DNA of 28,099 bases from a virus: positions 1-28,099 of the IMG/VR virus record IMGVR_UViG_3300028361_000099; one strand, given 5' to 3'. The notes under the pieces are model-generated. The model saw only the letters and a list, made by a program, of their open reading frames with translations. It was not told where the DNA came from and ran no database searches. The position numbers and the translations under genes were made by a program. Below are positions 11,521-24,731 of this stretch, in pieces; positions within the stretch are counted from its first letter, which is position 1, and every line of letters starts with the position of its first letter.

Positions 11521-14500
11521 ATGGCAAGAAATAAAGATAGATATGCTTACGCTACAACTGGAGATAGAGCGGGGAGGTATGAAAACCTTATGCCTAACCC
11601 AGACTATAAACCTGCGGTTGAACCTGAAAAACCTGAAGAGCAGGTTATGACTATTTCTGACCCTAGTAATTTTAATTTAAAACCACCAGAGAAAGACAAT
11701 ATATTTGAAAAAGCTGCTAAGTTTGTTCTGCCTAAAGGTGCTGAACAATACTTTGGACTCACTGAAAAAGATGAACTAAGTGCAGGTGATAGGATAAAAA
11801 AGAATGAAGATTTAAACCAGTCGTATTTTAGACAACAGAGGAAAGCTGAAAACATATCTAATGTTGAAACTCCACAAGCAAAGTATGTAGCACCAACCAC
11901 AACTGGGGGCAGGTGGGCAGACGCTGTTAAAAACTTTGGGTATATCCCAGATGTTTATACTGGGTACATTGAGCCAGCTGTAGGAACAGTTGCTGAGATA
12001 GCAGGTACACAAACAGGAAGCCCAAAGCTACGTGAATGGGGAGAGCAATTTACAGACACCTCAATGGAACAACACAGGCGAAGTGCTTCTGGACAATCAA
12101 TGGTTGACACTCCAGGAGTATTTGAGGGAGGTCTCAAAGACCCTCGTTTTTATTCAAAGACAATATCTCAAACCACAGGGTTCTTGGCTTCTATTCTTGG
12201 AACGTCAATTGCTGTTACTGCGGTTACTAAAAATCCTTTAGCTGGAGTAAGTGCAGGATATGCAGTCGGGACAATGCTTGAGGGATCTGGAGCGTACCAA
12301 GAAATGATTGATGCAGGAGTTGCTCCAGACAATGCCGCAGTAGCAGGTACTGTTTACGGAGTACTCGCCACAATGATTGAAAACGCTACTGGTATAAAAC
12401 CAGCTGGAGGTTCAGACCAACTGATCAAAGATTTCGCAGCTGAAGCAGGAAAAAATGCAGCAGTTAAGAAGTTCTTCAGGAAGTGGGTTGAAGAAGGAGT
12501 ACTTGAAGAAGGTTCACAGCAACTTGTTCAGAACCTTGTAACTAAATTTGTAGATGAAAACCAAGAGGTGTTTGATGGTGTTGCCGAGAGTATGGTTACC
12601 GGATTGATTGCTTCTGGACCGATGGTGGGAGGTAGTACTTATTTGGCTAATCGGAACAAAAAACAGGAAGATGTTGAATCAAATCAAGGTGTACAAACTG
12701 AACCACAAAATTTTACAACTTCTGGAGATACGTTTACAAGTAGTGATGAACAAGCACCAGCTGGACAAAGTTGGATGGTCCCAGTTGACCAAAATGAAAT
12801 AGGAAAGTCACAAAACTATATTGATGAAAACACTGCGATGCAAGCAAAGGGGGAAATTGGTACATACACGATGAACCATGTTAAGAAGGATCCAAAGACA
12901 GGTGAGTGGACAGAAAAGCAAAAAGAACATTCTGAATTCAGGCACAAACCATTTGCAGGTGTAGAGGAAGATCTTTTAAGAAGGATTCAGATAGGTGGAG
13001 GGGCTAATTTAGGCAAAGAAGACTTGATGAGATTAGGTGAAGCTTTGGTTAAAAACGGATACGCTAATGACAGCACTGGACTTATTGTTAAGGCGTATGC
13101 AGGTAATGATGTAATTCTTGGTACAACAAAAGGAGAACAAATGAGTACTCATTATATAGTTGCTGGTATAAACAAAGATACAGGTAAGCTAGAAACTGTA
13201 CGGTTTCATGCAACTCCAATAAGTAATGATCAAATTTTAGGTAGAACCAGACTATCAATTGCTGAGATGTCTGAGGAGTCACCAATAGGAATTACTGATG
13301 GAAATACATCTTCAGACAGTGAGACCAGCCGTGAGTTTGTTCCAGGACCAGGGTGGAAAAAAGTTGCAGCGAAATTTGACGGATGGGTTAGGCAGGGTCA
13401 CATGAACGCAGAAGATGCGGTAGTGCTTAAAAACTTATTTGAAGATGCAAATGATGATTATTTAGCTTCTTTGAACCTTAGTGTAAACGGAAGACTATCA
13501 AGATCTCTAGGAAGGTTTAATTTTAAAACAAAAGTAGACCCTAATTGGGACAGAAGCACTTGGAATGGAAAGATGAAAGATGTTCCAAGGATATTTGATC
13601 CAGCCAGAGCTGATGAACACAAGTTGGAACTTCAAAAGAACCTACCTGGAAAGGGAAATGATGCTGCAAGAGTGTTCCTGCACGAGTACGGTCATTCAAA
13701 TTGGTTTATGACTCTCTCTGACTCAGAAAGAGCTATGGTTGATAGGGAATATAAGAGACTTGGTAAACAGGGTAGCAAAAGAGTATTCAAAGGAGGTTTG
13801 GATGTGAACCCTAATTACCATGCTAGTAACATCAAAGAGTTCTTTGCTGAGATGTTTGCTGAGTATGTACTAGAAAACAAAGTTCCAGCGAAATATATGG
13901 AGCCCATGCTGAAGAGACTTGCTACAAGGTTTTATACAGCGATGAAAAGACTTGTTAACCGTGGTGAAGTTGATGCAGTAAACAGATTGAAACCAATATT
14001 TGAGAAAGCACTAGCTGGTGATAAAAACATCATTACAGACCTAGTTGAAGGAGAACCACCGAGCTTCAAACAAGAGCTTCAGGCTATGTTTGCTGATGAC
14101 ACTGGAGAACCTACACCAAATAAGAAGATCGATCTTAAAGTTGATAAACCTTTTGGGTCTATAGATGGTGTAAAACAACCTGCTCAACCAACCCAGTCAC
14201 CACTATTCCCAGGAGCCCCACCTGAAGTGAAGCGACCTACACCTTCTCCGATACAGCCTTCCCCAGTACAGCCAGTAGTTCCTCCAACTGATCCAGCAAG
14301 TGTACCTCCAGTAGAGGGTGCTGAACCTTTAGAAAAGGTTCTTGAAGGAGAGAAGAAAACACCACCTCGCAAGAAGGTAAGTATTTTAGATTGGATACGA
14401 ACACCCGCCAAAGTTATGAGAAAACTTGGTGTATATACTGAATACCGAGCCCTTATAACATCGTATGAAAAATATATCAAAGAGCTTCCTGGGAACATGG

Positions 14501-16107
14501 ACAAGATTGCAGAGTGGGCAAACAGAGTGTCACCAGAAAGTAATGAAAGGATATTTGATTTCCTCGATGGAGTAGACGGTATTGTTCTGACTCCACAGGA
14601 ACAGCAAGTTGCAGACGAGGTTAAGTCTTGGTTAGGACTATGGGCTGACAGACTTGGAATGAAACAAGATGAAAGAATCTCTAACTACATAACTCACATT
14701 TTCCCACTTGGAAAAGATGGGGCTATACCTGAAGAGATCGCTACATTGATAGACGGTAAAGTTGCCAAAAGTATTTACAACCCGTTCCAGTTACAAAGAA
14801 AGGGAGCGAAAGGTTTCAAACGGGATACTTGGGCAGCACTTGAAGCGTATGTGAAGAGGAGTACACGTAAAGCAAATATAGATCCAGCACTGGAGGAGTT
14901 CAACGAAGCTTCAAAACATCTTACTGAAAAGAGTCAGTCAAAGTATATTGAGAAACGTATTTCAACTCTCAATATGCGACCTACCTATGTTGAAGAAGGT
15001 GTTGATAATTTTATCCACACAGCACTACCAAACGTGGCTCCAAGACCATCACTCAGGGCTACTAGTTGGATAAGGAGGGTGATTTCAAGAGCTAAGATTG
15101 GGGGGTCAGTAGTGACTTTTGCAAAGAACTTAACGCAGGGGATCAATACTTGGGCTGAACTTGGTAACAAATACACAATGAGGGGCTACAGAGACATTGT
15201 GAAGTTTGGAGACAAAGAGTTGGTAGAAAACGGAGTACTCCGAGACTCATTCTATGAAGACAAAAAGTACGATGCTATCAAAAAGTGGGCTGAGAAGTTT
15301 GACAAGAAACTTTTCATAAACATGGAAGCTTCAGAGCTTGTAAATCGTGGTGGTGCGTACTACGGAGCAAAGGCTAAATTCCTTGATGGCAAAATAACTC
15401 CAAAGGAATACAACCTAGCATTTGATAAAAAGATGCCAAACAACTATGTACCAACAGAAGCAGAAGCAATCCAGTATGGTAAGCACGTTGCAGAGAAAAC
15501 TCAGTTCTTGTTTGGACCTCTTGAGACTCCACAAATAATGAGTGGACCATTCGCAAAGACAGCTATGCAGTTCCAAACCTTTGCGATGAAGCAATCAGAG
15601 TTTGGTTTGCAGATGCTTTCAGATAAGGAATATGCAAAACTTTCTAGGTATCTCATTGGATCTTCCATGTTGTTCCACTTCATAGGAAGTGCTTTTGGAA
15701 TGGAATGGGATGAGTCATTCAAGACATTCAGGTGGGGATACCCGCCAGTGGTTACTTTCATAGGTGACTTGTGGAAACAAGGGGTGTTCGGTGAAGACAG
15801 TTATGGAAATAAGTTGGACGCTGGAGAACGTGTCTCAGGTGTTGCAAATTCACTATTCACCAATGTAGTTCCAGCAGGGGCTCAGATGAAGAGAACATTT
15901 CAAGGTATTAGTGCTGTAAATGCTGGAAAGTCAGAGACAAAAGGTGGTACAAAACAATATGACATAGATCAGACTCCGATGAACTATATTAGAGCAGGGT
16001 TGTTTGGGAAAGGAACACTCCCACAAGCACAGGAATACTACCAAGAAAAAGAAGACAAAAAGAATAAAAAGAAAACCCCTAGCAAATCAAGAGAAGGGAG
16101 ATATTAG
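11521..16107 (+). CDS. Giant polyvalent virion protein with HEYGH metallopeptidase domain, 1528 aa
   Basis: This is by far the largest gene. Residues ~1-210 are polar. Residues ~218-265 are an Ala/Gly-rich hydrophobic region (GFLASILGTSIAVTAVTKNP) that could insert in a membrane. Residues ~700-800 hold a zinc metallopeptidase motif, HEYGH at 721-725 (HExxH), with FFAEMFAEYVLE about 50 residues later as a candidate third ligand. A Pro-rich linker at ~885-935 joins a helical C-terminal half (IPEEIATLIDGK, ending in a basic tail). Such multi-domain proteins are packed in the head and ejected with the DNA, like the large internal protein of T7 or 'large polyvalent' proteins. Its substrate (cell-wall peptide or host protein) is unknown. 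It starts after AAACAAAAAAAAT. Confidence 0.7.
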   Translation: MARNKDRYAYATTGDRAGRYENLMPNPDYKPAVEPEKPEEQVMTISDPSNFNLKPPEKDNIFEKAAKFVLPKGAEQYFGLTEKDELSAGDRIKKNEDLNQSYFRQQRKAENISNVETPQAKYVAPTTTGGRWADAVKNFGYIPDVYTGYIEPAVGTVAEIAGTQTGSPKLREWGEQFTDTSMEQHRRSASGQSMVDTPGVFEGGLKDPRFYSKTISQTTGFLASILGTSIAVTAVTKNPLAGVSAGYAVGTMLEGSGAYQEMIDAGVAPDNAAVAGTVYGVLATMIENATGIKPAGGSDQLIKDFAAEAGKNAAVKKFFRKWVEEGVLEEGSQQLVQNLVTKFVDENQEVFDGVAESMVTGLIASGPMVGGSTYLANRNKKQEDVESNQGVQTEPQNFTTSGDTFTSSDEQAPAGQSWMVPVDQNEIGKSQNYIDENTAMQAKGEIGTYTMNHVKKDPKTGEWTEKQKEHSEFRHKPFAGVEEDLLRRIQIGGGANLGKEDLMRLGEALVKNGYANDSTGLIVKAYAGNDVILGTTKGEQMSTHYIVAGINKDTGKLETVRFHATPISNDQILGRTRLSIAEMSEESPIGITDGNTSSDSETSREFVPGPGWKKVAAKFDGWVRQGHMNAEDAVVLKNLFEDANDDYLASLNLSVNGRLSRSLGRFNFKTKVDPNWDRSTWNGKMKDVPRIFDPARADEHKLELQKNLPGKGNDAARVFLHEYGHSNWFMTLSDSERAMVDREYKRLGKQGSKRVFKGGLDVNPNYHASNIKEFFAEMFAEYVLENKVPAKYMEPMLKRLATRFYTAMKRLVNRGEVDAVNRLKPIFEKALAGDKNIITDLVEGEPPSFKQELQAMFADDTGEPTPNKKIDLKVDKPFGSIDGVKQPAQPTQSPLFPGAPPEVKRPTPSPIQPSPVQPVVPPTDPASVPPVEGAEPLEKVLEGEKKTPPRKKVSILDWIRTPAKVMRKLGVYTEYRALITSYEKYIKELPGNMDKIAEWANRVSPESNERIFDFLDGVDGIVLTPQEQQVADEVKSWLGLWADRLGMKQDERISNYITHIFPLGKDGAIPEEIATLIDGKVAKSIYNPFQLQRKGAKGFKRDTWAALEAYVKRSTRKANIDPALEEFNEASKHLTEKSQSKYIEKRISTLNMRPTYVEEGVDNFIHTALPNVAPRPSLRATSWIRRVISRAKIGGSVVTFAKNLTQGINTWAELGNKYTMRGYRDIVKFGDKELVENGVLRDSFYEDKKYDAIKKWAEKFDKKLFINMEASELVNRGGAYYGAKAKFLDGKITPKEYNLAFDKKMPNNYVPTEAEAIQYGKHVAEKTQFLFGPLETPQIMSGPFAKTAMQFQTFAMKQSEFGLQMLSDKEYAKLSRYLIGSSMLFHFIGSAFGMEWDESFKTFRWGYPPVVTFIGDLWKQGVFGEDSYGNKLDAGERVSGVANSLFTNVVPAGAQMKRTFQGISAVNAGKSETKGGTKQYDIDQTPMNYIRAGLFGKGTLPQAQEYYQEKEDKKNKKKTPSKSREGRY

Positions 16108-18354: not shown

Positions 18355-18507
18355 CTATTTCTTATTATTAGTAATAAAGAAGTCTATGATTTCTCGGAAG
18401 ACCTCTCCCTCGGTTAATTTTTTCCTCTTAGCTCTTGCTTTCACAAAAGCTCCCTGGTCTTCCCGAACTCGTGTGTTGACTCTAGCCATTGGTTTTGCTC
18501 TTTTCAT
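18355..18507 (-). CDS. Small ribbon-helix-helix (CopG/Arc-like) DNA-binding protein, 50 aa
   Basis: Translation gives 50 residues. A basic start (MKRAKPM) leads to the strand ARVNTRVRED, then helix 1 (QGAFVKARAKRKK), a turn LTEGEV, and helix 2 (FREIIDFFITN). The pattern of alternating residues R-V-N-T-R-V, then the 'L-T-E-G-E-V-F-R' turn before helix 2, is the ribbon-helix-helix fold. Such dimers bind operator DNA, so it is a candidate regulator of this phage; the CACCGACA sites in the two promoters are possible targets. The ATG overlaps the upstream stop as ATGA, and its TAG is followed one base later by the next ATG. Confidence 0.8.
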   Translation of the reverse strand: MKRAKPMARVNTRVREDQGAFVKARAKRKKLTEGEVFREIIDFFITNNKK

Positions 18508-18878
18508 TTTAATTTTATTATTTTTTCTGCTAATTTATTTGCTTTCGACCTAGTAATGGAGATTACTCCATCATCTCTCAAATCTGATATAACTTCGTAT
18601 CTTATCAAACAAAACTCGTCTTTGAATTTTATAATAAGATATGAAGGTAAGGGGGGTATTACTGCACCATCGCAGGGCTTCGGTCTACTGATCTCATCTG
18701 AGAATTTCCATACTAATCCAGTCTTTTCAAGTGCGGGTAGTCCTTCGTCCTGTCCTTTTTCTATCTTTGCAAACTGAAAAGACTCAGTGTTTGTTTGTTT
18801 CAATTCGTAAAAACAGTAGAACCTTTTCTCTTTGAAATACTGGTTCAAAACTGTGTTCCACTTTTGCTCACGCTTCAT
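18504..18878 (-). CDS. PD-(D/E)XK-type, Holliday-junction-resolvase-like protein, 124 aa
   Basis: An N-terminal helix with E4 (KREQKWNTVLNQYFKE) leads to the strand FYCFYELKQT, giving the E25-L-K27 pair, and then Gln43 in KIEKGQDEGL. Next are GLVWKFSDEISR, PKPCDGAVIPPLPSYLIIKF and FCLIRYEVI. The order Glu, E-x-K, Gln, then strands is that of small resolvases and RecU-like phage proteins. An Asp before E-x-K is not obvious, so the active site may be partly atypical. It neighbours other recombination genes. Start and end both overlap neighbours by ATGA. Confidence 0.6.
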   Translation of the reverse strand: MKREQKWNTVLNQYFKEKRFYCFYELKQTNTESFQFAKIEKGQDEGLPALEKTGLVWKFSDEISRPKPCDGAVIPPLPSYLIIKFKDEFCLIRYEVISDLRDDGVISITRSKANKLAEKIIKLK

Positions 18879-19162
18879 ATTTCTTCAAACCAATTTAAAC
18901 TTTCTTCAGCAATAATCTGTTCATCGAGAGTCATCTTGTGGAAGATATAATGTTCTCCTCCTCCCAAAGTACTTTTCTCATCTGTCGGTGACACGTAGAT
19001 TATTCCTATGTTGATAATATCTTTCATCTCAATAAACGCTTTAATACAGTCATCATACGAGAAACCTGCCTGTCTTCCCTTGCTCATCAATTCATTCTTG
19101 TGTATCCAACCATCGTTGTGTTCCAGGTATCGAACCATTCTTGTTGTCAGTGTTGCTATCAT
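18875..19162 (-). CDS. Winged-helix-like protein, 95 aa
   Basis: The protein begins MIATLTTRMVRYLEHNDGWI, then HKNELMSKGRQAGFSYDDCI and a strand-rich part IGIIYVSPTDEK, ending in an acidic helix EESLNWFEEI. Helix-turn-helix followed by a hairpin of strands fits a winged-helix DNA-binding fold; this is a pattern guess. ATG 19162 gives an ATGA overlap with the upstream gene's stop, while an ATG at 19231 would need a long overlap, so I chose the shorter form. It follows a HIT-family gene. Confidence 0.55.
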   Translation of the reverse strand: MIATLTTRMVRYLEHNDGWIHKNELMSKGRQAGFSYDDCIKAFIEMKDIINIGIIYVSPTDEKSTLGGGEHYIFHKMTLDEQIIAEESLNWFEEI

Positions 19163-19512
19163 TTTATAGTTACCAAGTGATAGTGAAAATGTAACGGTAT
19201 GCTCCTGTTCTCTTTCTTGTTTAAAATGCACTGGTTGAAGTCCTCCTCCTCCAGTATCCGCTCAAGTTCTTCCTCTTCTGCTACATTCATTTCTATTCCT
19301 CTTTCAAAGTGTCGTTTCGGAGCCAGTAGTCTGTGGTTTATGAAGCACTTGTCGTAAGGGAACCTATTTTTTATGATAATCCAGTAATCGTATTCCTTTT
19401 CCAACAACTCCTTGTCGCAGAAAATACAGTTCCCTTTGTACTGTGATGCTAGGTAGTGCATGTACCTTTCCTGTGTTGCGTTTGTTCGGAGTGTTGTCTG
19501 GTTTAGGGTCAT
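19159..19512 (-). CDS. HIT-family (histidine triad) protein, 117 aa
   Basis: CIFC at 29-32 suggests a zinc site. H60 in INHRLLAPKRH and H68 follow, then a helix EEEELERILEEE, and the triad H108-F-H110-Y-H112-L-V at the C-terminal end. This is the H-x-H-x-H-hydrophobic signature of nucleotide hydrolases and transferases of the HIT superfamily, which act on AMP-linked substrates such as AppppA or AMP-lysine. The spacing NHRLLAPKRH, then about 40 residues, then the triad is normal. It is the first gene behind promoter P2, with a leader of about 8 nt. In a phage it may remove AMP from molecules or handle alarmones. The exact substrate is unknown. Confidence 0.8.
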   Translation of the reverse strand: MTLNQTTLRTNATQERYMHYLASQYKGNCIFCDKELLEKEYDYWIIIKNRFPYDKCFINHRLLAPKRHFERGIEMNVAEEEELERILEEEDFNQCILNKKENRSIPLHFHYHLVTIK

Positions 19513-19526
19513 ATCATTCTTCTCTA

Positions 19527-19555
19527 ATTATAATCTATGGCGGTGTCGGTGTCAA
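19527..19555 (-). promoter_or_regulatory. Sigma-70 promoter P2, consensus -35 and -10
   Basis: On the minus strand TTGACA (19550-19555) and TATAAT (19527-19532) are separated by 17 bp. Both hexamers match the consensus at all six positions. The predicted start point near 19520 leaves only about 8 nt before the ATG at 19512, so the mRNA is nearly leaderless. The word CACCGACA (19544-19551) overlaps the 3' end of the -35 box and also occurs in P1. The -35 box overlaps the stop codon of the HNH gene. Confidence 0.9.
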
Positions 19556-20079
19556 ATATTCAGCGTTAACTTCTTACTTCTTCTAGTATTGTTCATTTGT
19601 TCTTTTCGTGTAGCCCACTTACAATTTTTTGTAGTATAGTTTCCATCATTATTAATTCTTTCAATAGTCATTCCAGACTCTTTTTTCCACCCAATGTCTT
19701 TTATAAAGTTTTTAAACTTATGCCATCTTTTTGATACCTTTATCCCCCTTGCTCCATAATATTTATAATCCTTGCAGTTTCTATTTTCACATCTCTGTAT
19801 CATTTTACTCCAGATATGATATTCCTTTGGAACCTTTTTTCCAGAAGGTGTAAGACCATGAACGGTAGACCTTTTAATCACGACATCTTTTGCATAACAT
19901 CCACATGATTTCGTATCCCCATTTCTAAGGTGTGGCATAAATACTTTTACTTCTTTGCCACAACTACATCTACACAGAAACCTTCTTTTTCTATTATTAG
20001 GTATTTTACTAATTTCTTTTATAGCAAAAAGTCTACCGAAAGTTTTACCTATAATTTTTGATGAATCTATTTTTCTCAT
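19552..20079 (-). CDS. HNH-type homing-endonuclease-like protein, 175 aa
   Basis: The N-terminal part has a zinc-ribbon pattern (CRCSCG and KSCGC around residues 37-61). The C-terminal part has the segment [36 protein letters not shown] and EQMNNTRR, the layout of phage HNH/AP2-type endonucleases found as free-standing mobile genes. The gene begins inside the stop of the SF2 helicase gene (ATGA overlap). Its last residues LTLNI equal those of the helicase, with four of 18 bases different and all silent. That suggests insertion at the helicase 3' end with recoding. Its stop is part of the -35 box of P2. Confidence 0.8.
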
Positions 20080-21347
20080 ATATTCAATGTTAGCATTTCA
20101 GCGAAGTCTTTACCACTCATAATCGTATCGTGACAGTCACTGTCACATCCATTAACGACCAAGTGGATGTAGAGATTTTTCTTCAACTTGTTGGAACGAA
20201 GCACTCGCCCCAGTGACTGTTCGTAGTGAACAAACTGCCAAGACTTGCTTGCGTAAATCACACACGGGAATGATGGTAGCTCGTATCCAGAAGAGATGGC
20301 GTTGTTTGCAACAATAATGTGTGGTTCTGGGCTTTCGTCCACTGTCTTGATGAACGTCCTGTCCTTCGTTTCCCCTGTCAGAGTGGAAACTGTGTACCCC
20401 TCTTTCCGTAACTGCTTTGCAATCTCGTTGATCTGAGCAGTGTAGGTAGCAAAAATCAGGAGCTTAGGGAATTCTGCGGCTCGTTCTATGATGTAATCTA
20501 TCTTTTTGGACTTGAAAATTTGAGTCTCATCTCTCATTACGTCAGTCTTACCGTCAATTTCCTCTATTTTCTTTCCGTACAGCACTCCATTTTCAATCGT
20601 ACGGAGCCTAGCACGCCTTACAAGAGGATCAGGCTCCGAAAGCATCATATCCTTCACAGCGAGCTTTTGCTCTCCACTGAGCTCAATTTCTACAGTCTTA
20701 TGAGTTTGTTCAGGTACGTCAAAGAAGTCATTTAGACCCCCTGTGTATCCGAATTTCTGGACCAGATTTGCAAGTCTTTGTTTTACCTCTTCATTCTTCT
20801 TTACCATCCATATTCTGCGTATCCCCATTCTGATTTGCGTGTAGTAAACCTCACGAAATGCGGCAAAACTCCAATTCTGTCCGAACAGTATTCCTATGCC
20901 CCACATAGACATTGGTTTTGGTACTGGAGTTGCTGACAGTAGGTACAGTCTCTTTGGGGGGTGTTTCTGCAAAAAGTCGTAGGTAGCTTGGAATATCTGA
21001 GAGGTTTTTGGGTACTGTACTTTTTTTACCTGCTTGTAGTCAGGTGATACCCCCAAGTTATTGTGTACCTCATCTATTATCACAGTGTCGTAGTGTGGAA
21101 GCTCTCTCCAATCTCTCCGCAGATCTTCTTTGCTGATTACTGTCAGATCTACATTTGTTTCCCATTTATCATTCTCATGGAACCACATTTTATCTTCTCT
21201 CTGTTGCTTCGGGCAAATCACCAGTGTCTTACCCTCTGCCATCACGAGTGCGGTCCGAGTCTTACTTGCCCCTGTACCCAAAAACAAACCACATTTATGC
21301 TTGTCTTCGTCTATGATTTTCTGTTGATGTTTATACAGTGGCAACAT
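20076..21347 (-). CDS. SF2 DEAD/DEAH-like DNA helicase, 423 aa
   Basis: Motif I is L23-G-T-G-A-S-K29-T30 (Ser instead of Gly before Lys), motif II is D92-E-V-H95, motif III is S138-A-T140. A helicase C-terminal lobe follows ([40 protein letters not shown]), and motif VI is Q377-SLG-R381-VL-R384. This is a compact two-lobe ATPase for DNA unwinding, replication restart or recombination. The end ...EMLTLNI is reproduced at the end of the HNH gene. ATG 21347 overlaps the exonuclease end by 17 nt. Confidence 0.9.
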
Positions 21348-21863: not shown

Positions 21864-24260
21864 TTAAAAGTCTGCGGATCTTTGTGGATAATCTTGGGGT
21901 GAAGTCCCATCTCTAATCTTTATCCAGTGTGGACTTAGTGCCACTCCAATAAATCTTGCTTCACCTCCTGCATACTGTCTTTTTTCAAACGTGAACCTAT
22001 TACCCTTGGCTCCATAGGCTTTGACTTCTTTCTGGAATGTCATATTCATCTTTGGTTTTCTTCCTCCCTCCGATACACTCCATAGTTTGTATTCTTTGTA
22101 CAACTCAGGACCTTCAAGTGTTCCGTGTGGGTCCAGAATGACGCATTGTGATAGGAAGCCTTCAACTGAGGAGTTCTCTTCTCGATACTCGTCCATCATC
22201 GCTATCTGTTCCTTTGTTAGAACGAATTCTCCATCGTCAGCAAGTAGTTTCGCTCCCTCTATCATCCAGTTTAAAATTCCTGGAAGCTCTTGTGCTAGTA
22301 GTCCAACACTGGAACGTAGTTTGACGTTTGGATTTTCTCGGTAGTTGTTCAGGAAGTTAACAGCACAAATTCTTCTCTCTGTTCCCGAAGAGGTATCGTC
22401 TACCCTGGGGAGGAGGTTCACTGAGAATACGAATTTGGTTTGTGGTCTGAAAGTAAACTGGTCTTTGAATTTCATCTCAGTTGTTACTGACTCTCCCGAC
22501 ACAAGCTTCTTCAATTTGTTGCTCTGGTAGTAGTTCCCTTGTACCTCCTCAATAATATTCAATCTCTTTCCGATGAGTCCTTTGAATCCAAACTGTGCAT
22601 ACAATCCTTCAAGGTCTATGTGAGAAGTAGATTCAGGTCCGATTATCATTGAAATAGTATCTATGAATGTGGACTTACCATTACCTCCGTCCCCTACCAT
22701 AAATAGTGCTTTGTCGTACAACATTGAAGAGGAAAGTATGTATCCACAAAATTGCTGTATCAATTTCATTTTCTCTTCTTGTTCAGGACCTTTCATCCAG
22801 TCTGCTACACAATTTTCCCAAGTTGGGCATTTCGCTGCGGGGTCATATTCAACTGGGTACTGCACCAGTGATACGAATGTTGGGGTGTGTGGTACTAGCT
22901 CCCTAGTCTCGATGTTCAATAGTCCATTCTTCACATTGATGATACGTCCTCCATCGTTTGATAACTTAAACTCAGGGATGATTGACTGAAGACATGCAAT
23001 CTTGTCGGACACGTTCCTCTTTGTTCTGAACCCTCCCAACAAATCTTCGTACAGTCCGTTCAACACCATGTCGGACAGGTCTTGGTCCGACAGCATTTTA
23101 TAAACCCCATCCTTGTAGTCAAAGATTAGTCCAATCTCATTTTTCTTCATGTGCGGGTGCATCTCCAAGAGTGTCCGCTCGTAGTTGGTGAAACGGATCT
23201 TGTCCACTTCCTTTCTCGCCTTTGTTACTCCTGCAATTACATTGTTCATCCGCAACTCCTCTTCTGGAGTTGAGTTGTGAGCTATGAATTCATTACTGGT
23301 CCAGTACGTGTACTTCCCATTGAAAGCACTGTTGATTGTATTTTTTATTTCCTGTCTACCTCCTGCTTCTTTTTCGATACCATGCCATCCAACTTTGTCG
23401 GTATGTTCTATTGCTTGCTTCTTGGTCCAACCTGCTTGTCGCATGAGTGAAGCGGTCACGAGCAGTGCATCGTTGGCACAGTTCTCTCTCGGTAGTGTGC
23501 TGTCATCATCTCCTTTTAGTAGATTGTTGAAGCTGTCTCTCTCACTCATTGGGAATTCTTCCAACACTCTCTCAAAGAATTCATTCTTGTTTGCTTCGGA
23601 TTTCTCTTTCGCTCTGTCATTAGTTGGAGCCTCATCAAACGTCATCGGTATTGCAGTGCTTGGAAACGCTTCTTGTACCTGTTGCATTGTGTACGTGCTA
23701 CCAGTCCTTTTGTACAGTGGTTTTATTTTGAACACTCCATCGGTCCCAGTCTTGTACTTGTCTCCAGTCTTTTTCCAGTACCAAGTCTTCGGGACTCTAA
23801 GTATACGAGTGAGGTCTTTTACTTTGGGGTCAGCGTTCAATGCTGTCACTACGTCCTGTTCTATTTTTTCCCATAGTGCAACACTGGCTTCCCATTCTTC
23901 AGGTGATACTTCTTCTTTGAATATAGGTTCATCCAAACACCAATAGAGATGATACCCGTTCTGTGTTTCTAATATAAAAGTTGGGTCTAGTTTCTTTTTT
24001 ATCTCTTCAAGTTCATCTAAATCTTTACGCCCGTCTATGTCTATAAAAAATGCGTTGATTGAGGAGCAGTTATTTTTCTGTGCATTGGGAGCGTCTTTGA
24101 AACCGTTCACAGTGAAGTAGCTCTCATACCCGTTGATATTGAGTTCGTCCTTTCTTGTTTCACTGGACACTGGTGGTCGGCTCTCTCCTGTTAGGTCAAT
24201 GTACCGAAAAACATGATCTGGAAAAAAAGTTAAGAATATGTCTTTGCTACTATTTGTCAT
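21864..24260 (-). CDS. Bifunctional primase-helicase: archaeo-eukaryotic-type primase plus SF3 helicase, 798 aa
   Basis: Residues 1-160 look like a RepB/AEP-type primase: FFIDIDG at 71-77 (D74, D76 as metal ligands), NGYHLYW at 101-107 (H104), and TRILRVP at 151-157. A PriCT-like linker follows (LMRQAGWTKKQAIEHT). The C-terminal half is a D5-type SF3 helicase: Walker A G523-DGGNGKST531, Walker B LNIIEE 567-572, motif C KFVFSVNLLP 609-618, and the arginine finger RR at 629-630. This is the replication initiator and primase of the phage. It starts with an ATGA overlap of the endonuclease VII gene. The ATG follows an A-rich run. Confidence 0.92.
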   Translation of the reverse strand: MTNSSKDIFLTFFPDHVFRYIDLTGESRPPVSSETRKDELNINGYESYFTVNGFKDAPNAQKNNCSSINAFFIDIDGRKDLDELEEIKKKLDPTFILETQNGYHLYWCLDEPIFKEEVSPEEWEASVALWEKIEQDVVTALNADPKVKDLTRILRVPKTWYWKKTGDKYKTGTDGVFKIKPLYKRTGSTYTMQQVQEAFPSTAIPMTFDEAPTNDRAKEKSEANKNEFFERVLEEFPMSERDSFNNLLKGDDDSTLPRENCANDALLVTASLMRQAGWTKKQAIEHTDKVGWHGIEKEAGGRQEIKNTINSAFNGKYTYWTSNEFIAHNSTPEEELRMNNVIAGVTKARKEVDKIRFTNYERTLLEMHPHMKKNEIGLIFDYKDGVYKMLSDQDLSDMVLNGLYEDLLGGFRTKRNVSDKIACLQSIIPEFKLSNDGGRIINVKNGLLNIETRELVPHTPTFVSLVQYPVEYDPAAKCPTWENCVADWMKGPEQEEKMKLIQQFCGYILSSSMLYDKALFMVGDGGNGKSTFIDTISMIIGPESTSHIDLEGLYAQFGFKGLIGKRLNIIEEVQGNYYQSNKLKKLVSGESVTTEMKFKDQFTFRPQTKFVFSVNLLPRVDDTSSGTERRICAVNFLNNYRENPNVKLRSSVGLLAQELPGILNWMIEGAKLLADDGEFVLTKEQIAMMDEYREENSSVEGFLSQCVILDPHGTLEGPELYKEYKLWSVSEGGRKPKMNMTFQKEVKAYGAKGNRFTFEKRQYAGGEARFIGVALSPHWIKIRDGTSPQDYPQRSADF

Positions 24261-24731
24261 GTTTTTTTTAAATAATCAATAGCTTTTTCAAGCAACTCAG
24301 TATCATCATCAAAAAAACCAATAGCACTGTTACACTTCCCACAAAGAAGTCCTCTAATCTTATTTGTCTTGTGACAATGATCCATTGAAAGAAGATTTAG
24401 TGTTCCATTTTTGTGTTTCATTGTTTCTGGCTTACCACAAATGGCACACAGTCCTTTTTGTTTTTTTTAAAAGTGTATTAAATTCCTCGAAAGATAAATC
24501 TATACCCAAGGAACGTATTTTTGCTTTAAAGTTTTTCTTTTCGTTTTTTTCTGGATTTTTTTCTGTATACAATTTGTTATATGCGTCAGTTTTATCTTTG
24601 TTTCTTTTTCGCCATTTTCTCTGATACTTATTTATCTCATCACGGTGTTTTTTATAGTGACGCTGTTTTTGTGCCTTTTCTTTTTCAGGATTTCTTTGTC
24701 TCCATGTTTTTTTTGTTTTATTTTTTTCCAT
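24257..24731 (-). pseudogene. Endonuclease VII-family HNH gene with a one-base frameshift
   Basis: The first part encodes 90 residues of a Lys/Arg-rich coil (RQRNPEKEKAQKQRHYKKHR) in one frame, then a run of eight A (minus strand, 24461-24468). Deleting one A there continues as QKGLCAICGKPE, LLSMDHCHKTNKIRGLLCGK and CNSAIGFFDDD, a full endonuclease VII zinc/HNH motif, to a TGA that overlaps the primase ATG as ATGA. The joined product would be 157 residues. As written, translation ends early after ...TVCHLW. A real inactivation, a sequencing error in the homopolymer, or RNA-polymerase slippage on the A8 run are the options. In related phages such enzymes resolve branched DNA or act as mobile nucleases. 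Confidence 0.85.

Follow-up and report, generated by a model that had tools for sequence, protein, structure and literature searches.

A phage helicase gene appears to have had its end replaced by a homing-type insertion, in which a divergent helicase tail was supplied together with an HNH endonuclease gene, the native tail was displaced behind that gene, and homing by the HNH enzyme was the cause. We put the probability of this reading as a whole at roughly 0.75. Insertion with replacement and displacement of the tail is well supported and, taken by itself, highly probable; the cleavage, the homing and the assignment of the window's two tail copies to one phage or the other are what we infer. 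The analysis covered the window, a stretch of 28,099 nt (28 kb) from an IMG/VR record of an uncultured bacterial virus, together with its relatives. In these sequences we could identify the native helicase tail and its promoter neighbourhood, the duplication, its recurrence in at least three lineages and, for one case, an uninterrupted sister.

Two copies of a helicase end in the window

All features of the locus lie on the minus strand. The SF2-type DNA helicase gene (20076..21347) is a complete ORF of 423 aa with matches to Pfam Helicase_C and to the DNA helicase families PHROG 62 and 16, and its relatives are 72-79% identical. Its last bases form the first tail copy, W1 (CTAACATTGAATATATGA, 20076..20093), which its sequence and the conservation of the tail in relatives identify as the working helicase end. 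The predicted HNH endonuclease gene (19552..20079, 175 aa, PHROG 374) is the putative insert and is missing at this place in most relatives. It ends in the second copy, W2 (TTAACGCTGAATATTTGA, 19552..19569), which serves as the in-frame HNH C-terminus and which, on the basis of a profile match and of HNH homologues without LTLNI, is probably the displaced native end of the helicase. Behind it lies a TTGACA-17-TATAAT promoter (19527..19555, spacer GACACCGACACC), apparently the native neighbour of the helicase end since a promoter of the same type stands behind the helicase in HNH-free relatives. It is followed by an ORF of 117 aa (19159..19512) with no counterpart among the relatives compared. 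The far anchor of the variable region is a conserved downstream gene, the MKREQKWNT gene (18504..18878), found by tblastn in nearly all relatives and weakly matching the Holliday junction resolvase family PHROG 843 (E=1.5e-4).

Both the helicase and the HNH gene thus end in LTLNI-TGA. W1 and W2 differ at 4 of 18 bases, and all of the changes are synonymous (L CTA/TTA, T ACA/ACG, L TTG/CTG, I ATA/ATT). The HNH ATG (20079-20077) overlaps the helicase TGA as ATGA, and the last four bases of W1 therefore hold the HNH start, while the TGA of W2 sits within the TTGACA (19555-19550), from which a 17-bp spacer leads to the TATAAT (19532-19527). The initial annotation had described both copies with their four silent differences, the HNH start inside the helicase stop and the second TGA within the -35 box, and its strings and coordinates agree with the window sequence throughout. 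The GC content of the HNH gene is 31% versus 43% for the helicase.

The HNH protein matches the PHROG 374 HNH endonucleases with E=5e-57, and five more PHROG endonuclease families in addition. The PHROG 374 match stops at residue 170, immediately ahead of LTLNI. The predicted model (pLDDT 89.8) is similar to phage HNH proteins in BFVD. No Pfam match was obtained, a fold search of the PDB with the model gave no match at E<=0.001, and a PDB sequence search found no relative with the single protein and weak unrelated matches only with a profile. We compared the C-terminus with those of homologues, eight phage proteins from an annotated collection and several from IMG/VR, and none of these ends in LTLNI. 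Long homologues have an additional C-terminal region. Short ones end in NNRRTKNSIK or NKNRRKF at the place where the window protein reads NNTRRSKK and continues into LTLNI. Because the homologues stop at the position of SKK without LTLNI, the original stop of the window HNH frame seems to be missing, and the LTLNI-stop ending would have been gained by reading into the displaced helicase tail. Related HNH genes that themselves end in LTLNI would have been at odds with the initial annotation; those examined end otherwise.

Tail duplication does not appear to be a general habit of the HNH family: at 64 unrelated loci of the family we found no convincing case, the top matches resembling ribosome-site or base-composition matches. 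Inspection by eye showed no tail copy at L022 (4199 onward) and L027 (6443 onward), where window-type HNH genes lie behind distant helicases (25-30% identical), and no tail duplication at the overlap of DNA polymerase and HNH gene in Staphylococcus phage L117.

Two other features of the window were observed. Directly before the primase, a frameshift divides an endonuclease VII-like gene (24257-24731, minus strand; Pfam Endonuclease_7, E=1.5e-16) into two ORFs; the gene is perhaps a decayed second free-standing nuclease. A phage protein of 1,528 aa (11521-16107, plus strand) has a zincin-like motif, HEYGHSNW, its sole Pfam match being weak and below the cut-off.

The native arrangement and its interruption in three lineages

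A scan with the window helicase alone gave no relative, and neither did a scan of genome contigs. A primase scan led to L004, with a primase 61% identical to that of the window and a helicase 76% identical, and alignments of two and then of fifteen helicases opened up a family in IMG/VR with some 20 close contigs and another 20 or so that are more distant. The ending DFQEKLTLNI, or a near variant of it, is conserved across the close group; the distant helicases have endings that differ from LTLNI. Where a relative lacks the HNH gene, a TTGACACCGACACC-type promoter lies behind the helicase stop, usually 0-21 nt away; in the emptiest of these relatives the MKREQKWNT gene comes directly after the helicase end and promoter. 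The HNH insertion is thus missing at the same site in related genomes. From the conservation of LTLNI and the presence of the promoter behind the stop in insert-free relatives, we conclude that LTLNI is the helicase's own end and that the promoter is its native neighbour. The initial annotation had expected the helicase of HNH-free phages to run directly into this promoter (P2). The promoter does follow, and no HNH-free helicase that bypasses the P2 region was found among these relatives, but the exact direct fusion ATTTGACA is present in none of them; a scan for it matched only L040's own contig. L004 (ATCTATTGACACC) and L043 (ATATAGTTGCACC) come closest to the fusion, and in the others a gap of ~5-21 nt separates the stop from the -35 box. 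Among the relatives compared, none was an HNH-free near-twin of the window.

The promoter region has some further features. In the window (19527-19555) and in most relatives the spacer repeats GACACCGACAC, which suggests a repressor operator. A DnaA-box-like sequence, TTATCCACA, occurs in either orientation a few bases from the helicase stop in L036, L037, L042, L052, L055 and L062; it is absent behind the helicase in the window and L040.

Using a 21-bp leave-one-out profile of helicase tails, we scored the DNA between the helicase and the MKREQKWNT gene at each locus. Second tails scored above all dinucleotide shuffles (300/300) at three loci: the window, where the tail is W2, L040 and L011/L047. 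No second tail was found at 12 other loci, except for an ambiguous one at L038. Over 457 kb of family DNA, both strands included, one off-site match reached the level of W2, compared with three just downstream of helicases; about 0.03 matches would be expected in the ~12 kb concerned, giving P ~3e-6 with a threshold set post hoc. The plain ungapped score of W2 against its own tail W1 is ~11 (worked by hand), which falls within the background of the 64 unrelated HNH loci. The W1/W2 pair by itself is therefore a modest DNA match, and it is the family profile and the relatives that make the case.

At the L040 locus the gene that begins within the helicase stop is another HNH gene, of 142 aa, and GAAAAGTTAACTTTAAACATTTGACAGCGACA comes behind it; L039 has the helicase and the HNH start in common with L040, but its contig ends early. 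The corresponding gene of L011/L047 encodes 93 aa with CxxC pairs and has weak HNH-like matches; it too begins within the helicase stop, and behind it come AAAGATTAACTTTAAACATATGA and a zinc-ribbon gene. In both L040 and L011 the second tail lies out of frame with the nuclease-like gene, whose stop falls within it. As the reading frame of the second copy varies from case to case, the tail behaves as leftover DNA and not as a protein motif. In L040 and L011 the first copy carries changes that are partly non-silent (LSLNI, LTMNI).

The origin of the second copy can be read most directly in L011. The helicase tree pairs L011 with L050 as sisters (support 100/99), and in L050 the helicase tail runs uninterrupted into a zinc-ribbon gene. 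The second tail and zinc-ribbon gene of L011 align with this uninterrupted stretch, with 22/23 tail bases identical. It follows that in L011 the native end is the second copy, now displaced, and that the first copy, CTAACGATGAATATATGA, was most likely brought in by the insert. None of the three carriers (the window, L040 and L011) is sister to another of them in the tree, which indicates at least three independent events at one spot; as read from the sequences, all three junctions lie close to the E-K/R-L codons.

A further LTLNI-TGA reading (TTAACATTAAATATATGA) was noted at L004:11669-11686, where an RlpA-like gene has its -10/start region, shortly after the native helicase end and -35 box. 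The score of this second copy, found in L004/L038, was reached by 1/300 shuffles, and it is ambiguous between homology and chance.

Proposed mechanism and alternatives

We propose that a free-standing HNH gene inserts where the helicase gene ends. Just upstream of the HNH start, the arriving DNA would carry the terminal helicase codons of a divergent phage, and this tail would end in the ATGA common to it and the HNH start. The recipient's own tail would be kept, shifted to the 3′ end of the HNH gene and still joined to the native promoter. The helicase protein would stay full-length, and a stop-less HNH frame would run into the displaced tail. In a co-infection the HNH enzyme would presumably cleave an HNH-free phage in or close to its helicase tail, and repair would then copy the donor helicase end together with the HNH gene, relying on long helicase homology on one side and on a join at or near the tail on the other. 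A homing-type insertion had already been suggested in the initial annotation. Its account of a supplied synonymous tail, an intact helicase and a native tail and promoter left behind is borne out by the relatives, the homologues and the L050 sister, while we infer the cutting by the HNH enzyme. Some observations speak against homing: L089, a short and possibly chimeric contig, carries an L011-type gene but no second tail; the L011 gene is itself only weakly HNH-like; and the 64 other HNH-family loci give no convincing tail duplication.

The same arrangement could also arise by passive, illegitimate recombination, if the junction of helicase end and promoter were a gene-acquisition hotspot at which arriving DNA contains part of a related helicase tail and is joined inaccurately, with the HNH gene as cargo and not as cause. 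The site does take other genes. An epimerase (L009/L045, with a sister, L008/L041, that is without it), a zinc-ribbon gene (L050) and small ORFs (L010/L046, L053, L063) are inserted here, and such non-nuclease genes begin in the same ATGA. Because the site accepts them it is a general hotspot, and the HNH enzyme may be cargo. The possible second tail ahead of the RlpA-like gene in L004/L038 fits this explanation, as do L005 and L006, where the allele changes at the helicase 3′ end and no nuclease gene can be seen. Comparison of these two contigs gave 0 mismatches over 7,000 bases and then a sharp divergence in the last ~190 nt of the helicase. In this part of the contig (L005:7090-7877), L005 has the FAEM tail type, found otherwise only in the window, and an additional 157-aa gene behind the promoter. 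Since L006 and L018 are identical across 12.6 kb and L005 matches L006, the three appear to belong to one population; the switch could be a natural recombination or an assembly join. No co-conversion tract is visible in the window helicase, and the L005/L006 switch, with its possible assembly join, has no HNH gene.

Against passive recombination, displaced tails behind an insert were found only with nuclease-like genes, none accompanying the epimerase, zinc-ribbon or small-ORF inserts. The counts are 3/4 for nuclease-like inserts versus 0/5 for others (P=0.048, or 0.19 when the ambiguous L038 is counted), a weak association. In other phages, nuclease genes lie at boundaries of exchange (PMC10448857). 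We consider the passive explanation unlikely, and causation by the nuclease likely.

The initial annotation took the silent recoding as a sign of selection, W1 having been silently altered or chosen to give immunity to the phage's own HNH enzyme while keeping the protein. All four window differences are indeed silent, and in the three carriers the first codon is CTN in the first copy and TTA in the second. However, CTN first codons are also present in tails without a displaced copy (L044, L049, L062, L089), some of the changes in L040 and L011 alter the protein, and the insertion itself already breaks any site that spans the junction. Moreover, among 18 LTLNI helicase tails the pairwise differences average 3.0 of 15 bases and the commonest value is 4, the number found between the window copies. 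Since the tails of two unrelated phages ordinarily differ by this much, divergence explains the recoding. Selection for immunity does not seem needed, the claim is not supported, and we regard it as quite improbable.

LTLNI might instead be a functional C-terminal motif that both proteins need, for example for binding a shared partner. Its conservation in the close-group helicases and its in-frame position in the window HNH protein would agree with such a role, but in L040 and L011 the nuclease-like gene stops inside an out-of-frame copy, the HNH homologues lack LTLNI and the distant helicases end differently, which leaves this explanation very improbable. That adjacent genes share their five last residues by accident can be dismissed as having next to no likelihood: the nucleotide likeness of the copies is modest and unrelated HNH loci reach similar ungapped scores, but LTLNI at a given C-terminus has P ~1.5e-6 from local residue frequencies, the HNH homologues examined end otherwise, the duplication recurs at the same site and W2 stands in its native context of tail then promoter.

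Known systems and significance

The closest parallel is found in fungal mitochondria, where mobile ORFs (mORFs) encoding an endonuclease replace the end of atp6, atp9, cox2 or nad3 with a foreign, largely synonymous end and leave the native end downstream (PMC3630166). Such carboxy-terminal duplications have been described for atp6, atp9, cox2 and nad3 of Glomus and for atp6 of Allomyces macrogynus (PMC3630166). As in mORFs, an endonuclease ORF lies at the 3′ end of an important gene, the inserted end is in frame and the native end is displaced (W1/W2; L011 versus L050), and the differences are mainly synonymous. The mORFs belong to mitochondrial genomes, encode LAGLIDADG or GIY-YIG enzymes and have duplicated ends of ~50-280 bp. 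The locus described here differs in being on a phage record, with an HNH protein, a tail of ~20 bp and a separate overlapping start (ATGA). Since the anatomy agrees and the genome and enzyme do not, the locus would work like an mORF without being a member of that class, and by analogy may be viewed as a miniature phage counterpart of the fungal mitochondrial mobile ORFs.

The seg and mob genes of T4-like phages are likewise free-standing nuclease genes between conserved genes and present in some relatives only (PMC2988022). Of the features of free-standing homing genes that can be read from sequence, the window locus has a predicted homing-type nuclease domain and relatives in which the gene is absent at the same site. 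The seg and mob genes are reviewed as intergenic, and cutting and transfer have been shown for several of them, whereas the present locus is known from sequence; the string 'duplicat' does not occur in the review, and tail duplication is therefore not described there (PMC2988022). In ICP1 and other phages a nuclease gene likewise lies at a boundary where genomes change partners, and passages of the paper concerned contain no duplication of the end of a neighbouring gene (PMC10448857). No precedent for carboxy-terminal duplication was found in the phage literature searched.

A group I intron or an intein was rejected for the window locus. The helicase ORF is complete with its own stop and there is no Rfam match in 18900-21000 at E<=1; with no known structured RNA and a complete helicase, neither applies. 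An intein is present in the helicase of another family member, L016 (4807-7008; same contig as L062), as an in-frame insert of ~310 aa at DE|CH of motif II, which starts CFTGETEILTDSGF, ends VFVTGN before C and has a LAGLIDADG-like stretch. The same helicase has thus been struck by a second kind of mobile element.

Engineered home-and-rescue gene drives combine a nuclease with a recoded part of the essential gene that it cuts (PMC7968924). The analogy is functional: those drives are CRISPR constructs in Drosophila with no evolutionary relation to the phage locus, where rescue would be a putative property. More tentatively, and at clearly less than even odds, the phage locus may be a natural element of this kind, in which the HNH enzyme is directed at the coding end of the helicase and its gene moves together with a divergent version of exactly those codons that are destroyed, different nuclease-like genes having converged on a ~20-bp site. 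Such an element, if real, would invade coding sequence without loss of the helicase.

Free-standing phage homing genes are usually described as intergenic insertions. In the present family a nuclease gene appears to sit on a coding end, with the protein left intact through a replacement tail, which makes it a parallel in phages to the carboxy-terminal duplications of mitochondria. At ~20 bp, the footprint left by the displaced tail would escape standard annotation, and it locates the insertion point to a few bases. Target choice, tail replacement and immunity would be directly testable, since an uninterrupted sister is available together with three nuclease-like genes at one site, two of them different HNH genes.
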